64,000 bases of DNA, taken from contig JAEOTM010000143.1 of assembly GCA_016839815.1 (NCBI GenBank), forward strand, positions 26,461-90,460, given 5' to 3'. Shown here in pieces: positions 40,510 to 48,105 of this stretch; the first letter of the stretch is position 1; every line of letters starts with the position of its first letter. The position numbers were made by a program, and so were the translations under genes. This DNA comes from Candidatus Hodarchaeota archaeon (GTDB lineage Archaea > Asgardarchaeota > Heimdallarchaeia > Hodarchaeales > Hodarchaeaceae). The notes under the pieces are model-generated. The model was given only the letters and a program-made list of their open reading frames with translations, was not told where the DNA came from and made no database searches.

Positions 40510-41592
40510 ATGCCGGGATCAGAGATTTTAGAATCGATCGTACCAAGATCAATTATTATTGGAAATTCAATTCTTAATAAAATCCCGCAAATAATTGTGT
40601 CTTTGAGATTCAAACCTAAAGTAATGGTACTTACTGGTACCAAAACGCGTCATATTATAGGGGAGGAAATTTATGCCGTTTTAGAACAAGAAGATATCAC
40701 CTTTGATACCTTGATTGTCGAAGAGGCTTCCCTTGAAGCAGCCAGTACTTATCAGGACAGTGTGAGAGATACAAATTCAAATATTCTCATTTGCGCTGGG
40801 GGAGGTAAAGTGATTGATGTGGGTAAATACTGTTCCTTTAAAGCTAGTGAGAAGACAGAATTAATATCCGTACCAACTACAGCATCTCATGATGGAATTG
40901 CTTCCCCTTTTATCTTTTTAAACGATCCTACTGAAAAATATATTGGAGAAAGCCGACCCCCAGTTGCCATTGTGGCGGATATTGACAAAATTATTCAGCA
41001 TCCAGACTTACCTAGATATTTAGCTGCTGGTGTCGGTGATACTGTAGGAAAAATGACAGCAATCTGGGATTGGAGGTATGCACATCGTATCAAATCGGTA
41101 AGATTTTCTCGCTTTGTGGGAGGTGTTCTGCAGAGTGCTGATTCCTTATTCCAAAATCAAGTATCAGAGGCACTAGTAGATCAAGAAAACGCGATTAAAG
41201 TGGTATTAAAAGCATTACTGATTGCAGGAGTTCTCATGGGAACATCTAATGATATAAGAGTCGGATACGGCTCCGAACACTTATTTTCTCAAGCTTTACA
41301 CTCTGAAACCCCCGATAACGACATTCTTCATGGAGAACGAGTCGCAATGGGTACAATTCTGATGGCAAAATTACAGGGCCAAGATTATCAACAAATTATT
41401 AATATATTAGAAGCCGCAGGGTGTCCAACCAATATTGATGAACTAGAGGAAGAAATCGATCCAGACGCAATTGTAAATGCTTTACAAAAAGCACATAGAG
41501 TTGATTCAATTTATACAATCCTAGGTGAAACGGGATTATCAAAGAAGGCAGCTGAAACACTTGCGCTTCAAACGAATGTGATATCGAGTTAA
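40510..41592 (+). CDS. egsA: sn-Glycerol-1-phosphate dehydrogenase
   Basis: A 360-residue NAD(P)-dependent enzyme that makes sn-glycerol 1-phosphate, the backbone of archaeal lipids. Visible motifs are the nucleotide-binding ILICAGGGKVIDVGKY, the family mark SVPTTASHDGIASPFIF with a zinc-ligand Asp, and zinc His residues in RVGYGSEHLFSQAL and LHGERVAMGTI. It is the clearest single sign of archaeal membranes here, which matters for the archaeal versus eukaryotic lipid question in Asgard archaea. It has its own TATA box and precedes the TrmI-JAMM gene cluster by about 85 bases. Confidence 0.95.
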   Translation: MPGSEILESIVPRSIIIGNSILNKIPQIIVSLRFKPKVMVLTGTKTRHIIGEEIYAVLEQEDITFDTLIVEEASLEAASTYQDSVRDTNSNILICAGGGKVIDVGKYCSFKASEKTELISVPTTASHDGIASPFIFLNDPTEKYIGESRPPVAIVADIDKIIQHPDLPRYLAAGVGDTVGKMTAIWDWRYAHRIKSVRFSRFVGGVLQSADSLFQNQVSEALVDQENAIKVVLKALLIAGVLMGTSNDIRVGYGSEHLFSQALHSETPDNDILHGERVAMGTILMAKLQGQDYQQIINILEAAGCPTNIDELEEEIDPDAIVNALQKAHRVDSIYTILGETGLSKKAAETLALQTNVISS

Positions 41593-41677: not shown

Positions 41678-42409
41678 ATGTCTACAAAAACAGAGAGTCC
41701 AGTTATCGGAATAACAATTAGTATTTTCACCGATGCAGGACCTCAGGTTATCTTCAATTCAGCTGAAAAACATGTATCAGAAGACCAAGCATTTAATCTT
41801 TCTATTCGAATAATGACACTTATAGGAGAGGAGATAAGTGGAGATATATATGGACCATTACCTGTTCCTTCAAATGAGGAATATTTATGCTTGGCTTATG
41901 CATTCTTCGTAAAATCGACTTTCACCACAGATCCACGTTTGAATAATAGGCCTTCTGTAATCTGTGTTATCTTCCAAAGACAACTAAAACGCATTGTATC
42001 ACATGCTCAAGGACTAATTCTTTCATATTTATCAAATGTAACCCCCGACATTTTCCAGACAGAAGATGACTTCATTCCTGAAAAAATTAAGGAGATTGAC
42101 ACACGGTTAACCGCACTCATAAGTACAAACCCAATTAGAATTTATCGTGTCTCAAAAGATAAGCTTATTGAGCATATTGATCCTGTTATGATCCCATCCG
42201 ATGCCTATGTAGTTGCAGACCTTGAGAAAAAAACTCTATTCGTCTTATACGATCAGCATTTGTCTCCTGTGAGAAAAAGAAACGTAAGTATCATGATTGA
42301 TTCATTAAATGAGAAAGAGTATCGCCGTGGTTTCAACAAACGAATAATCGACTCAGAAGAGGAAAAAGAACAACTCCTGAATTTTTTTGGGCTAAAAACT
42401 AAAATATAG
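41678..42409 (+). CDS. Unknown protein, first gene of the TrmI-JAMM cluster
   Basis: About 243 residues from the ATG I prefer; the track uses a GTG at 41642 that adds twelve basic residues. I do not recognise the family. Residues 5-130 alternate strands and helices (VIGITISIFTDAGPQVIF, AFNLSIRIMTLIGEEI, EYLCLAYAFFVKSTFTTDPR), a pattern loosely like longin-type domains of trafficking proteins, though this is weak. Residues 150-215 form a second alpha/beta part, and the end is charged. No signal or membrane segment. It ends 13 bases before the next gene and is surely co-transcribed with it. Confidence 0.6.
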   Translation: MSTKTESPVIGITISIFTDAGPQVIFNSAEKHVSEDQAFNLSIRIMTLIGEEISGDIYGPLPVPSNEEYLCLAYAFFVKSTFTTDPRLNNRPSVICVIFQRQLKRIVSHAQGLILSYLSNVTPDIFQTEDDFIPEKIKEIDTRLTALISTNPIRIYRVSKDKLIEHIDPVMIPSDAYVVADLEKKTLFVLYDQHLSPVRKRNVSIMIDSLNEKEYRRGFNKRIIDSEEEKEQLLNFFGLKTKI

Positions 42410-42422
42410 GAAGGAATGAAAG

Positions 42423-42809
42423 ATGGAGCTTCCAGGTGCATATAGAATTGAATTATCGAACTTTATTGATCTGGTACGTTTAATTACGAGTTCCAGTCCA
42501 GATAGACCTTCTACGATCTTTAAATGGAAAAGTCAAGATGGAACGTATTATTATGGAACCTTTGCCATTTTTCCTGGATATTTTGATTACCGGTCATTAC
42601 CTGTTCTATTTTTTATAACCACAGAGTCTGAACTGGAAGGAAAAGGGCAAGGATTAGTCCGTTATGACCTACAGGAATCGGATAATCAAATCTCTTTCTT
42701 GAAGTTTTTAAAAGAACAGGATTTAGAAAATGCACATACTGGGTTGATTCGATTTATCCCAATCATTAATCTTAAATCACCCCCAACAATATTTACAGAT
42801 TCAGCCTGA
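42423..42809 (+). CDS. Unknown small protein, second gene of the TrmI-JAMM cluster
   Basis: A 128-residue soluble protein that I do not recognise. It seems to be a strand-rich domain (FKWKSQDGTYYYGTFAIFPGYF, SLPVLFFITTESELEGKGQGLV) with one helix (ISFLKFLKEQDLE). ATG start with GGAAGG about ten bases before it. Gaps of 13 and 9 bases to its neighbours point to an operon. A structural partner of a neighbouring gene product is possible but unproven. Confidence 0.6.
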   Translation: MELPGAYRIELSNFIDLVRLITSSSPDRPSTIFKWKSQDGTYYYGTFAIFPGYFDYRSLPVLFFITTESELEGKGQGLVRYDLQESDNQISFLKFLKEQDLENAHTGLIRFIPIINLKSPPTIFTDSA

Positions 42810-42818
42810 GAGGACACT

Positions 42819-43598
42819 ATGCTCACCGAAGGGAGTATTGTAAGAGCTTTCGAAATTTCTGATAGAAATCCAAAGTCTTGGATATTTAAACTATTGAAAG
42901 ATGGAGAATATTCAACTCATCTTGGCCGAATAGATCATAATGCAATTATTGGACAAGAATACGGTAGTGTCATCACTTTAACTAAAGGTGAGATTATAGT
43001 CTTAAGACCCTCTCCTAGGGATTTTCTACGTTCCTTTAGACTAAAAACACAAATTATGTATGCTGATGATTGTGCAATTGCATGTAGCGTTGCGGGGATT
43101 GGGAATGGCATGTCTGTTGGAGAAGCTGGGACTGGATCGGGAGCTTTAACGACTTTTCTTGCATGGGCTGTGGCTCCAGATGGACATGTATACTCATTCG
43201 ACATAAATGAAAAACATCTATGTAATGCACAACAGAATCTTCAACTAACTGGCTTACAAGATAATATTACGTTCAAAATATTTGATATTCGTGAAAAATT
43301 TACGGTTCCCCCTCTTGATGCATTCTTTTTAGACTTTTCAACCCCTTTCGAGGCTATTGATACTGTCACCCCGAATTTAGCTGGTGGAGGGCATTTAATA
43401 TGCTTTGTACCCAATTGGGGACAGGTTGAGCAATCTGTTGAAAAAATCCAACAAAACTCGGAGCTTGCACTACAACAAGTTTTTGAAATCAATCGAAGAG
43501 ATTTCAATATTAACCCAAAGAAACATATAATGCGTCCATCATTTAGGTCGATTGTTTATTCAGGAATTATTATTCACGCAATTAAGATTCTCACCTAG
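42819..43598 (+). CDS. trmI: tRNA (adenine-N1)-methyltransferase TrmI
   Basis: A 259-residue SAM enzyme making m1A in the tRNA T-loop (57/58 in archaea). The N-terminal beta domain (GSIVRAFEISDRN, LGRIDHNAIIGQEYGSVI) is typical, motif I is GEAGTGSGALTTFLAWAV, then HVYSFDINEKHLCNAQQNL, and the catalytic-site region is DAFFLDFSTPFEAID. The family more often has LDLPxP, so DFSTP is slightly unusual. It sits inside a four-gene run with two unknown genes and a JAMM protease. Confidence 0.9.
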   Translation: MLTEGSIVRAFEISDRNPKSWIFKLLKDGEYSTHLGRIDHNAIIGQEYGSVITLTKGEIIVLRPSPRDFLRSFRLKTQIMYADDCAIACSVAGIGNGMSVGEAGTGSGALTTFLAWAVAPDGHVYSFDINEKHLCNAQQNLQLTGLQDNITFKIFDIREKFTVPPLDAFFLDFSTPFEAIDTVTPNLAGGGHLICFVPNWGQVEQSVEKIQQNSELALQQVFEINRRDFNINPKKHIMRPSFRSIVYSGIIIHAIKILT

Positions 43599-43613
43599 TA
43601 TCGAGATGGCTTT

Positions 43614-44522
43614 ATGATTCAAATCCCAAAGGAAGTTTATCAAGATTTTCTCAGATTTGCTCTTGAGAATGCTAATCCTCTTAAAAAATCAAGATATTGG
43701 AGAGAATGTATAGGGTTAATCCTCGGTCGTATTGATGGAGAATCGATTATTGTAACTGATATTATTCCCATTGGTTCTGGTTCATCAGTCTTTGTAGACA
43801 TAAGTGATTATGAAAAAGTATTTTCGCTAATTTCTTTTGATCGAATAGATCAAGGTGAAGTGATAGTTGGTTGGGCTCATACTCATCCAGGTTTAGGGCT
43901 TTTTTTTTCAGGTACAGATATTGGAACCCAAATAACATACCAAAGCATGCATCCGCTGGCATTTGGACTCGTCCTTGACCCAACCAAGGTTAATCCTTTT
44001 TCTCCTGGTTTTAATCTTTACAGAGTAGATTCATCAACATCTCGTCCTTATACGGTTGATTTTCATTTTACAGAGGAATTTAATTATCTCTCAATTTATC
44101 AGCAATTGACACAAGAATTATTTGATGTAACTATACCTATTTCAGAGATGGTTCCCGAATTAAAAGCAGTTAATATGGTAACTTGGAAAAACATTACCCT
44201 TACCTTGGAAAAGCCTTCAAGTGTTCAAAAGAATACACCATTCCCAATAAAACTTACTCTAAAAATGTCACGATCTCAATTCTTCAGGGTATCCTACAAA
44301 CTTCGGATCTATAACGCAAAAATGAGTTCGATGCAGGATTTCGATGATTCTAATGAATATTTTCATGAAACATTTGATTCTGGGACATTAGCAATTTTTT
44401 CAATAGTTTCAGATAACCCAAATCAAATATATTTCCAGCTGGAACATATGAGGGTGACTGATTATAGACAAAAATATTATGATTCCCCTGCATTAGGAAT
44501 CGAAGTAGTTTCTAACGAATAG
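43614..44522 (+). CDS. JAMM/MPN+ metalloprotease, Rpn11/CSN5-like
   Basis: A 302-residue protein. Residues 1-170 form an MPN+ domain with the full zinc set: E31 (WRECIGLILG), H89 and H91 with S99 and D102 in GWAHTHPGLGLFFSGTDIGTQ. This core is strikingly like eukaryotic Rpn11 and CSN5 (GWYHSHPGxGCxLSGxD). Residues 185-302 form a second, strand-rich domain (ITLTLEKPSSVQKNTPFPI) not typical of Rpn11. It is predicted to remove ubiquitin-like proteins from targets. No ubiquitin, E1, E2 or E3 gene is in the window. It is the last gene of the cluster, 15 bases after trmI. Confidence 0.9.
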   Translation: MIQIPKEVYQDFLRFALENANPLKKSRYWRECIGLILGRIDGESIIVTDIIPIGSGSSVFVDISDYEKVFSLISFDRIDQGEVIVGWAHTHPGLGLFFSGTDIGTQITYQSMHPLAFGLVLDPTKVNPFSPGFNLYRVDSSTSRPYTVDFHFTEEFNYLSIYQQLTQELFDVTIPISEMVPELKAVNMVTWKNITLTLEKPSSVQKNTPFPIKLTLKMSRSQFFRVSYKLRIYNAKMSSMQDFDDSNEYFHETFDSGTLAIFSIVSDNPNQIYFQLEHMRVTDYRQKYYDSPALGIEVVSNE

Positions 44523-44526
44523 AATA

Positions 44527-45333
44527 CTAAACTTCTTGGTTTTTGAATTTACGATTCCCATAAAGACCTAAGAGAACAAAAGCTACGAAAATGAAGAACA
44601 CTCCATAGAAGAGAAAAATTAAGACATATGGCGGTTCTGGTAAACTCTCGACAAACTCAAAGGACATATTTTGGGGAAAATAGACCTCTTTAGTTACTCT
44701 ATCTCCCTCATAGATATGATATTCCACCTTAAACGCAAATTTGTAATTTCCATACGTTGGGAGGGCTAAGTATGGAATCTTGACAACTTCAGATTTTGAA
44801 GAATTCGGGGGTAATACTAAATCCTCAGGATTGTTTGCATTATATTCTGATTCTCCAACAACACCTGTACGGTTATCTTTTTCACCTGTTCTAACTTCGT
44901 AAACCTCGACGGAAAATCTATGAATCACAATAGATTCGTCATTTCCGATAACTGTTCCATAGGAGGCATTTATTCGCAGTTTTGAGTTATTTACAATCTG
45001 GGGGGTTAAAGTAGTTTGACCAGTAGTAGGTTCTTCAGGTACCAACTTCTCAAGAGTTACAAACGTTCCGTCTTTTTCAACTTCAAGATTCACTTGTTGA
45101 ATTTTAATCAACGGAGATTCGGATTGTGCTCTTGCAGCTTCGATTTGAAGCATCTTGGGCTGATTAAAAGGCATAATTCCTGAAGAAAGCATAACCACTA
45201 TAAGGATGATGCTTGGTTTTATGATTTTACGTATCATGTGACATACCAATCCATATACTCTTTGAAGAGAATCTTTTTTTGTCGTTAAGACTGAAATCTT
45301 CTTTTTCTGATTCCGTCTATATCTTTTATGCAT
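44527..45333 (-). CDS. Membrane-anchored extracellular protein downstream of ATPase E
   Basis: A protein with an N-terminal hydrophobic segment (KPSIILIVVMLSSGIMPF), a strand-rich outer domain with VNNSKLRINASYG and NGT/NMS-type glycosylation sites, and a C-terminal membrane helix VLIFLFYGVFFIFVAFVLLG followed by a basic tail. The track starts at a TTG (45363), which overlaps atpE by 17 bases; ATG codons at 45333 and 45237 are alternatives, and 45237 would give a classic signal peptide. The overlap or near overlap suggests co-transcription with ATPase E. Family unknown. Confidence 0.6.
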   Translation of the reverse strand: MHKRYRRNQKKKISVLTTKKDSLQRVYGLVCHMIRKIIKPSIILIVVMLSSGIMPFNQPKMLQIEAARAQSESPLIKIQQVNLEVEKDGTFVTLEKLVPEEPTTGQTTLTPQIVNNSKLRINASYGTVIGNDESIVIHRFSVEVYEVRTGEKDNRTGVVGESEYNANNPEDLVLPPNSSKSEVVKIPYLALPTYGNYKFAFKVEYHIYEGDRVTKEVYFPQNMSFEFVESLPEPPYVLIFLFYGVFFIFVAFVLLGLYGNRKFKNQEV

Positions 45334-45346
45334 TTTTCTAGTATTA

Positions 45347-45970
45347 CTAACTACCTTCACCAAAAATAATAGAACTCAATTTATTTCTTATTGATTCTTT
45401 TCTTCGATCGAAAATGGCATTAAATGTATTATTTACAGTCAAAGAGCCTTTTTGAACAATAATACCACCATTGGTAAGGTCTTGCTCTGAAGAAGAAAGA
45501 TTAAGCTTAGTGCTGGTTCCAGTTTTCTTTGCAATTTCAGCTTCTAGGGAATTAGTATCGATGGTGTGAGTATCACTAGGATGTAATGTGATATTCATTT
45601 CACCTCCCTCTAGGATAGTTCCACTTAACACTATTAATTCAGAAATGGAATTCAAATATCTTTGATCTTTTTGTTCTCGCATCAATTTGATCTTATTTAT
45701 GCTTTCATCAAAAATCTCTTGAACCAAGGACTCCTTAAAGTTTTCAAGTTCAATTTTGTTCTTTATTCGAATTCGTGACAGTTCTCTTTGTACTTCGAGT
45801 TCCTCTCTCTCACTTCTCTCTGTTTCAGCTTTTTGTCTTAATACTTCATTTTCACTTTTTGCTTGAGTTAATATTTTATCTGCTTCTTTTTTGGCTTCTT
45901 TTAGGATCTTCTCTGCATTGTTTTGTGCATCCTGAAGGATTTCTTGTTCTAATTGTTGAATATCTGACAT
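45347..45970 (-). CDS. atpE: A/V-type ATP synthase peripheral-stalk subunit E
   Basis: About 207 residues from the ATG at 45970 (the track adds three codons from a TTG). The N-terminal half is a long coiled coil (LEQEILQDAQNNAEKILKEA, KKEADKILTQAKSENEVLRQ) and the C-terminal half is the globular domain with SISELIVLSGTILEGGEM and LTNGGIIVQKGSLTVNNTF, matching the GGxxVxxxDGxxxxxxTxxxR-type signature with FDRRKESIRNKL after it. It pairs with subunit H (30953) but is coded 14 kb away, next to unknown genes. Confidence 0.9.
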   Translation of the reverse strand: MSDIQQLEQEILQDAQNNAEKILKEAKKEADKILTQAKSENEVLRQKAETERSEREELEVQRELSRIRIKNKIELENFKESLVQEIFDESINKIKLMREQKDQRYLNSISELIVLSGTILEGGEMNITLHPSDTHTIDTNSLEAEIAKKTGTSTKLNLSSSEQDLTNGGIIVQKGSLTVNNTFNAIFDRRKESIRNKLSSIIFGEGS

Positions 45971-46007
45971 AATTCTCAATCCTATTAGTATACTAATGAT
46001 TTTCGTT

Positions 46008-47075
46008 TTAATCTAGCCTTATAATGGGATAGTTTTCTTCTAACAGTTCCCCTATTGTCTGCTTAATTGCATTTTGAGCCTTTGAAATTTCTTCCTCTGT
46101 GAAAAACTTCTTCAGCTCTTTGATAATGAAGAAATTTGGGTCATTCTGATTTCCATTTGATAATATCTGGTAGATTTCTCTTTCAATTAACCCTCTAGAA
46201 AATTTCTCTTTCAAAATATCAAAAATGATTTCATGAGCAATCATTATTTTCAATTCATTTTGACTTGTTCGGTTTATCACTTCCGATGTGAATACAAGAA
46301 CCGAAAAATCCTCTTTCACCTGACTCATTGCATCCAACGAAAAAACTGGTATATAGGAGGGTTCAAACCTGTTTTCTAATGCGGTTCGAAACAAATATGG
46401 TTTCACAGATATTCGATATCTATTCGCGATCCGTGCAGAATATTCCCGTAAGCTTGATTGGATTGTGATTAAGGTTGCTTTTGCTTTACGTAGTTCATTC
46501 AGATGTTGCATGGATTCCATTGAAATATCTTCAAGGATCTTGATAATTGGAAAAATCTGAATTCCTGTACGTACCTTCATCCTTAGCTGTACTTCGATTT
46601 TTTCAGTAAAATCCTCATAAGGAATAACATCTTGACCTTGCATACGGATAAGGGGGAGATGTTTAATGTCGCTAAATGCTAGAATTTCTGATTCCGATAC
46701 TGATTTATTTTCACAAAAGATATTCTTGAGAATAGCGGAGAAGTACTCCATCCCAGTTGATAAAGCACTTGAATCTAAAGCTTGAAATACAGGAATTGAA
46801 AAAATGATAATCATAAATTTCTCTTCATTCTCTTCAATTATATGAAAATAAAAAGGACTTACTTTCTGATTCTCTAGTTGAATTAAACCATTAATCCCAT
46901 AAAAACGAACTTGTTCGACCACATCCAATAAAGCAGAGTACTGTAAAGTAACTCTTTCAAACTCAATTGACATCCATTCTTCGATAGTTAAACGAAATTG
47001 AAACTGTTGGGTTGGAGGAATCTTCTGGTGAGAGCTCATTCTACTAGCAATGAGGTTGGAAAGCGAATAAAACAA
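46008..47075 (-). CDS. Unknown 355-residue protein
   Basis: A soluble protein that I do not recognise. Residues 30-190 look alpha/beta (RFYGINGLIQLENQKVSPFYF, FMIIIFSIPVFQALDSS), the centre is helical (MESMQHLNELRKAKATLITIQ) and the C-terminal 80 residues are helical and charged. IMIAHEIIFDI contains HE but no second His, so it is not a HExxH peptidase. The start is TTG with ATGGGGGG five bases before it, ten bases after the stop of the upstream membrane gene; that site decides for TTG over the ATG at 47039. Probably one operon with the membrane protein and ATPase E. Confidence 0.6.
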   Translation of the reverse strand: MFYSLSNLIASRMSSHQKIPPTQQFQFRLTIEEWMSIEFERVTLQYSALLDVVEQVRFYGINGLIQLENQKVSPFYFHIIEENEEKFMIIIFSIPVFQALDSSALSTGMEYFSAILKNIFCENKSVSESEILAFSDIKHLPLIRMQGQDVIPYEDFTEKIEVQLRMKVRTGIQIFPIIKILEDISMESMQHLNELRKAKATLITIQSSLREYSARIANRYRISVKPYLFRTALENRFEPSYIPVFSLDAMSQVKEDFSVLVFTSEVINRTSQNELKIMIAHEIIFDILKEKFSRGLIEREIYQILSNGNQNDPNFFIIKELKKFFTEEEISKAQNAIKQTIGELLEENYPIIRLD

Positions 47076-47085
47076 TTACCCCCCA

Positions 47086-48105
47086 TCAATAACGTTGACC
47101 TGCTCGTTGATATGCTACCCAGAAGAGAAATGTAAAAATTGTAAAAGCTATAAAAATTGCACTGGAACGGCTGATAGTCTCTAAAGCACCAGAAGCAAAG
47201 TTAACAAGTTGAAAGAGGAGCAATGTCAACCAACCTACAATACTTGTATCACGACTAGTTAGCAATCCCTTCCAATATCGAATTATTAGGAGAATTATTC
47301 CTAGAATTACAACCCCGATGTGAATCCAACCAAGAAATTCTTCGAAGCTATCAAAGAATAGATACAGTGTTTCCAAACTTATGAAGCATACTAATGAGAT
47401 TAGGGTAATAAATAAATTTGGAATTCTCACATCACGATCAACCTGTTGTGCTCCTTCGTATACTAGATAAATTGCTCCACCAATTGTAGCCGAATCAGCT
47501 AAAATGAGAGCAGTTGTATATAACTCATCGATTCTATCAATCCAGAGGTCTATAAGTTGTGAGAAAAACCCTACAATCCCTGATTGGGAATTTAGTAGAT
47601 CATAACCAAAGTAAAATCCAATTACGACTAGTAAGGGGAAGGGGGAGTACACCAAAGTCAGAATTTTTGTTTTCCGTTGACCAGAAATTAATTTGCCCTC
47701 TTCTCTCCATCCAAAAAGATAGACTGCAATAAAATATCCCCCAAACAGAGAAACAATTGGAATTATTATTGGAAATAGAAAAACAACTCCTAAAAGAAAA
47801 TTGAATCCGTAGAAAGCTTTAATGGTGGTTGGTAGTCGCCACACCTCTCGTCCAAAAGTTTCATATGCATCACCAATTTGGTATCTTTTTCCGTATGTCC
47901 AAAAAAAGAAAGGAACAGCCATTATAAGTGGTCCAATTCCGTAAACAATAAAATTAGAAAGAAAAATTAGTTCTGAAGTGTTTAAAAACCAGATCACTCC
48001 GTCCTCAAAAATAAAAGAGAGTAAATAGAAGTAAATTGGAATTAAAATAAACTGTAATAAGACTACCAATCGTCCATAATGAATATAGCTTTCGTACTCA
48101 CTCAA
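47086..48105 (-). CDS. Polytopic membrane protein, unknown
   Basis: A 339-residue protein with about nine hydrophobic segments, for example LVVLLQFILIPIYFYLLSF, FNFLLGVVFLFPIIIPIV and LFITLISLVCFISLETLYLF. No transporter or enzyme signature is recognised. GREVWRLPTTIKAFYGFNF is a conspicuous cytosolic loop. The start is TTG. It heads a minus-strand run with the 355-residue unknown protein, ATPase E and the membrane-anchored protein. A role near the ATPase is only a guess from position. Confidence 0.65.
   Translation of the reverse strand: MSEYESYIHYGRLVVLLQFILIPIYFYLLSFIFEDGVIWFLNTSELIFLSNFIVYGIGPLIMAVPFFFWTYGKRYQIGDAYETFGREVWRLPTTIKAFYGFNFLLGVVFLFPIIIPIVSLFGGYFIAVYLFGWREEGKLISGQRKTKILTLVYSPFPLLVVIGFYFGYDLLNSQSGIVGFFSQLIDLWIDRIDELYTTALILADSATIGGAIYLVYEGAQQVDRDVRIPNLFITLISLVCFISLETLYLFFDSFEEFLGWIHIGVVILGIILLIIRYWKGLLTSRDTSIVGWLTLLLFQLVNFASGALETISRSSAIFIAFTIFTFLFWVAYQRAGQRY

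Follow-up and report, generated by a model that had tools for sequence, protein, structure and literature searches.

An orphan Rpn11-like JAMM protease in a four-gene cluster with a TrmI-type tRNA methyltransferase in Hodarchaeales

Why should a JAMM protease resembling Rpn11 and CSN5 be encoded next to a tRNA methyltransferase, with no ubiquitin genes at hand? This question was raised by a stretch of 64,000 nucleotides (hereafter the window) from a genome of Hodarchaeales, an Asgard order reported as sister or closest to eukaryotes (PMC10307638). The components of the locus, their relatives in other genomes and the ubiquitin-like systems of the same genome were analysed. Families are designated by the codes of the genome search, in which f1 is the family of the window and f2 its sister family.

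A compact unit of four genes

The original prediction had proposed a tight cluster of four genes with gaps of 9–15 bases, and this was borne out by a same-strand run of four ORFs on the forward strand, g1, g2, TrmI and JAMM, with intergenic gaps of 13, 9 and 15 bases. Comparison of the window with two close relatives gave dN values of 0.07–0.20 and dS values above 1.2 or saturated, indicative of purifying selection on each of the four; with dN far below dS in all cases, they are real genes. Scanning for sigma-70 promoters yielded matches no commoner than in shuffled sequences. The four genes probably form a single transcription unit in this Hodarchaeales genus, with components of differing history. 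Upstream, a glycerol-1-phosphate dehydrogenase gene (40510..41592, forward strand; NCBIfam NF002022, E 1.6e-87, below the equivalog cut-off) ends 85 bases before the g1 ATG.

TrmI (42819..43598, forward strand, 259 aa) is a TrmI/Trm61-type tRNA (m1A) methyltransferase. Both the methyltransferase domain (GCD14, PF08704, 96.7 bits) and the N-terminal domain (TrmI-like_N, PF14801, 25 bits for a cut-off of 24) were recognized, and nothing unusual was found in comparison with known members. The two proteins described as unrecognized in the original prediction remained so: neither g1 nor g2 matched a Pfam or NCBIfam family, and neither is a known housekeeping protein. The g2 product (42423..42809, forward strand, 128 aa) was found in 86 of the 228 genomes of the phylum, nearly always as a single copy. 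Its structure model was good (pLDDT 86, pTM 0.81), and a Foldseek search against the PDB gave no fold match (best E 0.49). In family f4, g2 follows the V-ATPase c subunit gene and lies beside ESCRT-III genes; viral contigs carrying g2 were also scanned, and no usable pattern was obtained.

The JAMM gene (43614..44522, forward strand) encodes 302 aa, with a JAB domain at residues 2–114 (PF01398, 46.3 bits for a cut-off of 22.5). Its nearest PDB relatives were archaeal Rpn11 and CSN5, and the zinc site, composed of a glutamate and an HxHPx7SxxD motif, was complete: E31, H89, H91, S99 and D102 were invariant among the 11 members aligned (alignment A3). The core HTHPGLGLFFSGTD (43878..43919, forward strand) covers residues 89–102, and E31 completes the site. 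The active site is therefore present, and the description of this core as nearly that of Rpn11 or CSN5 was well founded. The extra C-terminal domain (44163..44522, forward strand, residues 184–302) belongs to a part of the protein that evolves at about three to four times the rate of the catalytic part, as estimated from the window and two close relatives, and profile searches with the C-terminal domain of f1 JAMMs detected no relative.

A third, orphan JAMM in the genome

No ubiquitin, E1 or E2 gene was detected in or near the cluster, as had been noted before. The same genome encodes two ubiquitin-like conjugation loci elsewhere, each with a JAMM of its own, so that the JAMM of the window is a third, orphan copy. 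The first of these loci combines two ubiquitin-like genes, E1, E2, a membrane RING-like protein and a JAMM, and the second (on another contig) comprises E1, a ubiquitin-like protein with GG at its C-terminus, E2 and a short JAMM. The window protein is thus unlike archaeal-type JAMMs, which are defined by being encoded together with ubiquitin, E1 and E2.

In the phylogenetic tree, the JAMMs of f1 and f2 formed one clade (99/96), to which neither operon-type Rpn11 nor the tail-anchored orphan JAMMs belong. The latter, from families f4, f6 and f11 (loci L173, L176, L177, L179, L182 and L183), carry a C-terminal hydrophobic stretch resembling a tail anchor. Topology tests did not reject a grouping of f1/f2 with the JAMM of f7 (p-AU 0.33), though the tree itself does not join them, and a grouping with f7 plus the tail-anchored orphans was weakly rejected (p-AU 0.04). 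Its sequence thus places the window JAMM in a separate lineage, distinct from that of the JAMM in the ubiquitin operon of the same genome.

Two known types of deubiquitinase offer points of comparison. The JAMM zinc site and an Rpn11/CSN5-like sequence are common to the window protein, CsRpn11 of Caldiarchaeum subterraneum and the Rpn11 of Asgard ubiquitin operons, and their loci are alike in having no proteasome-lid partner (PMC6043591). Unlike these proteins, the window JAMM displays HTHP in place of HSHP, carries the additional C-terminal domain, has no E1, E2 or ubiquitin neighbours and falls into a separate clade. An AMSH-like protease, from the type of JAMM deubiquitinase linked to ESCRT, also matched the window JAMM (E 2e-8). 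The HTHP-type core is a further feature that we take to be a likeness to AMSH. However, the JAMM domain of the window protein is N-terminal, unlike that of AMSH, no Pfam match to the MIT domain, a hallmark of AMSH, was found in it, and in the genus of the window the gene is not near ESCRT genes. Such proximity was seen in a single sister-family genome, where ESCRT-III, Vps4 and ESCRT-II genes are followed, after rpS2 and at a distance of about 2–3 kb, by a JAMM homologue (region L046, 286–7069).

Probable later arrivals in an older neighbourhood

Conservation of the gene order in other Asgard archaea, proposed as a check of the original prediction, held within the genus and stopped there, since the four-gene cluster was found in no other family examined. 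The refutation foreseen in that prediction, an order shared with no relative, is thereby averted. Nine genomes of the genus, including that of the window, contained TrmI (one further match was weak and off-target); TrmI and JAMM were adjacent in all nine, mostly 4–15 bases apart, and seven had all four genes in order. One of the remaining two was cut by a contig end. The other (G042) lacked g2 and had a broken g1; it was discarded as evidence of gene loss (L044, 6448–7101 and 9553–9892), the V-ATPase subunit E gene being missing as well and an assembly error being possible. Likewise, neither JAMM nor g2 was found in G043, G046 and G050, the last of which has g1 beside a masked gap. Co-loss of g1, g2 and JAMM in these genomes was not retained as a sign of coupling: TrmI and V-ATPase subunit E were also missing, and the region is therefore probably unassembled.

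The flanks were collinear as well, in a region of about 17 kb that includes the cluster. With so much conserved together, the order of the genes in the genus says little about function and was rejected as proof of it. The grouping may thus be a chance one, a compact unit of unrelated genes kept merely through the close kinship of the genus members; the absence of the cluster beyond the genus would also fit this explanation. We nevertheless consider it unlikely, as JAMM identity falls to 46–50% within the genus with the spacing still tight, and as the JAMM of f7 occupies a corresponding place.

This place is defined by the genes on the reverse strand downstream of the cluster. Convergent to JAMM lies a gene for a membrane protein with hydrophobic N- and C-terminal stretches (44527..45363, true start probably internal), homologous to the corresponding gene of f7 (hhalign 94.7%, E 6e-8). 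It is followed by V/A-type ATPase subunit E (45347..45979; PF01991, E 7e-18), by a 355-aa protein of no recognized family (46008..47075), located within the collinear region, and by the multi-pass membrane protein W46 (47086..48105), which neighbours g2 and TrmI across the phylum. The JAMM gene of f7 lies opposite the homologous membrane protein and V-ATPase subunit E, some 5–6 kb from TrmI. In an f4 genome (G008), W46, V-ATPase subunit E and the membrane protein are faced by TrmI, and JAMM is absent between them. TrmI, V-ATPase subunit E and the two membrane proteins thus make up a neighbourhood also present elsewhere with no JAMM in it. In five other families (f9, f10, f13, f20 and f28), g2 and TrmI are at most about 4 kb apart, usually with W46 close by, which points to an old link between the two. 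A protein with a gelsolin domain was also observed to adjoin TrmI in f20 and f13 (L156, 5939–6760; L157, 1209–2054); the assignment of the L157 protein was based on a PF00626 match below the curated cut-off (E 0.002).

These distributions bear on the link between tRNA modification and ubiquitin removal suggested by the original prediction. In such a scheme, JAMM would strip TrmI, or a TrmI–g2 complex, of a tag and so regulate tRNA methylation. The adjacency of TrmI and JAMM throughout the genus and the long-standing vicinity of g2 and TrmI would both be accounted for. However, JAMM adjoins TrmI in no other family examined: TrmI occupies the corresponding neighbourhood in G008 without it, the f7 JAMM lies at a distance from TrmI and beside a GTPase gene, and the lasting neighbours of TrmI are g2 and a membrane protein. 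The remainder of the region is also just as collinear in the genus. This link is not supported, and we regard it as improbable. The simplest reading of the distribution, which is not a reconstruction, is that JAMM and g1 were later arrivals, inserted between old neighbours of the TrmI/V-ATPase region, and that TrmI would be an ordinary tRNA methyltransferase carried along in the unit.

Possible connections with membranes and small GTPases

The g1 product (41678..42409, forward strand, 243 aa) appeared to be composed of two domains. A deep profile gave as its top PDB match the Asgard gelsolin-like protein 7c2f (E 0.001), followed by villin, the match to 7c2f covering the C-terminal domain (approximately residues 155–240). 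Hhalign comparison with Asgard gelsolin domains reached a probability of 81%, versus 0.1–0.3% for unrelated families. This domain was classified as gelsolin-like on profile similarity over its whole length, though without a Pfam match. The N-terminal domain is tentatively longin-like: a low-confidence model (pLDDT 48) displayed the longin-type order of strands and helices, and no Pfam or PDB profile match was obtained for this part. This first structure model of g1 was not confident enough to be used in a fold search, and no profile link was detected between g1 and a Fuz-longin-like protein of f5.

In the loci analysed, members of the g1 family were beside small GTPases in 10 of 39 cases, against 37 of 1177 other genes (Fisher p 8e-7, the genomes being related and not independent). 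Paralogues of g1 occurred in gene runs that also contain GTPases of the Ras-like and Gtr1/RagA-like kinds (L235, L239, L169 and L170), and a gene between a g1 paralogue and the next GTPase matched Gtr1_RagA, barely above the cut-off. In this respect g1 recalls longin-type GTPase regulators, from which it differs, as from Asgard gelsolins, in combining a gelsolin-like domain with a tentative longin-like one. In one cultured Asgard archaeon, GTPase genes were reported to lie generally outside operons with roadblock, longin and TRAPPC3 genes (PMC10933270).

A GTPase is likewise associated with the JAMM of f7, whose gene comes immediately after that of a Ras-like small GTPase and has the same orientation (L048–L054, L068 and L069). 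The C-terminal domain of this JAMM matched Pfam TRAP_beta above the cut-off in nine of nine members (E 6e-9 for the first), and no such match was found in the f1 members. Homology between the C-terminal domains of f1 and f7 was considered and dropped, since hhalign gave no support. The 'strand-rich' character of the window domain is accordingly a putative one, based on a reading of its residues and on the TRAP-beta-like domain of the related f7 JAMM.

A new JAMM complex was the other possibility raised by the original prediction. By analogy with the partner complexes of JAMM/MPN proteins, JAMM might form a dedicated complex with g1, and perhaps also g2, in which a subunit resembling a GTPase regulator scaffolds the deubiquitinase. 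Four genes in one tight unit, together with the small-GTPase associations of the g1 family and of the f7 JAMM, are consistent with such a complex; its existence is rather doubtful, however, given that in f2 the g1 and JAMM homologues were on different contigs and the sole g2 found on a third, in assemblies that are fragmented.

The account that we prefer, to which we give about even chances, is that of a non-proteasomal deubiquitinase, probably membrane-linked, that joined the old TrmI/V-ATPase neighbourhood. JAMM would be a zinc isopeptidase removing ubiquitin or a ubiquitin-like tag from particular proteins, away from the proteasome, and the conjugation systems found at other loci of the genome would supply the tags it cuts. 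Its C-terminal domain may bind the substrate or a partner, its site of action would probably be the membrane or the small-GTPase machinery, and g1, a presumed partner of JAMM, probably regulates or accompanies a small GTPase. The fact that no GTPase gene was found within the cluster counts against this account, as do the missing profile link between the C-terminal domains of f1 and f7, a tree that does not itself unite f1/f2 with f7 and the low confidence of the model behind the longin-like assignment of g1. A further extension, in which a JAMM deubiquitinase and a longin/gelsolin-like regulator of Ras/Rag GTPases next to V-ATPase would represent an archaeal, pre-endolysosomal forerunner of membrane ubiquitin control, seems to us very unlikely.

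The lineage of the window JAMM adds to Hodarchaeales an orphan and apparently non-proteasomal deubiquitinase, and g2 is a widespread Asgard protein without a solved relative. Candidates amenable to testing are g2 itself, the fusion of TRAP-beta and JAMM in f7 and the g1 family beside Rag-like GTPases. Should JAMM work at the membrane, deubiquitination not tied to the proteasome would be older than eukaryotes.
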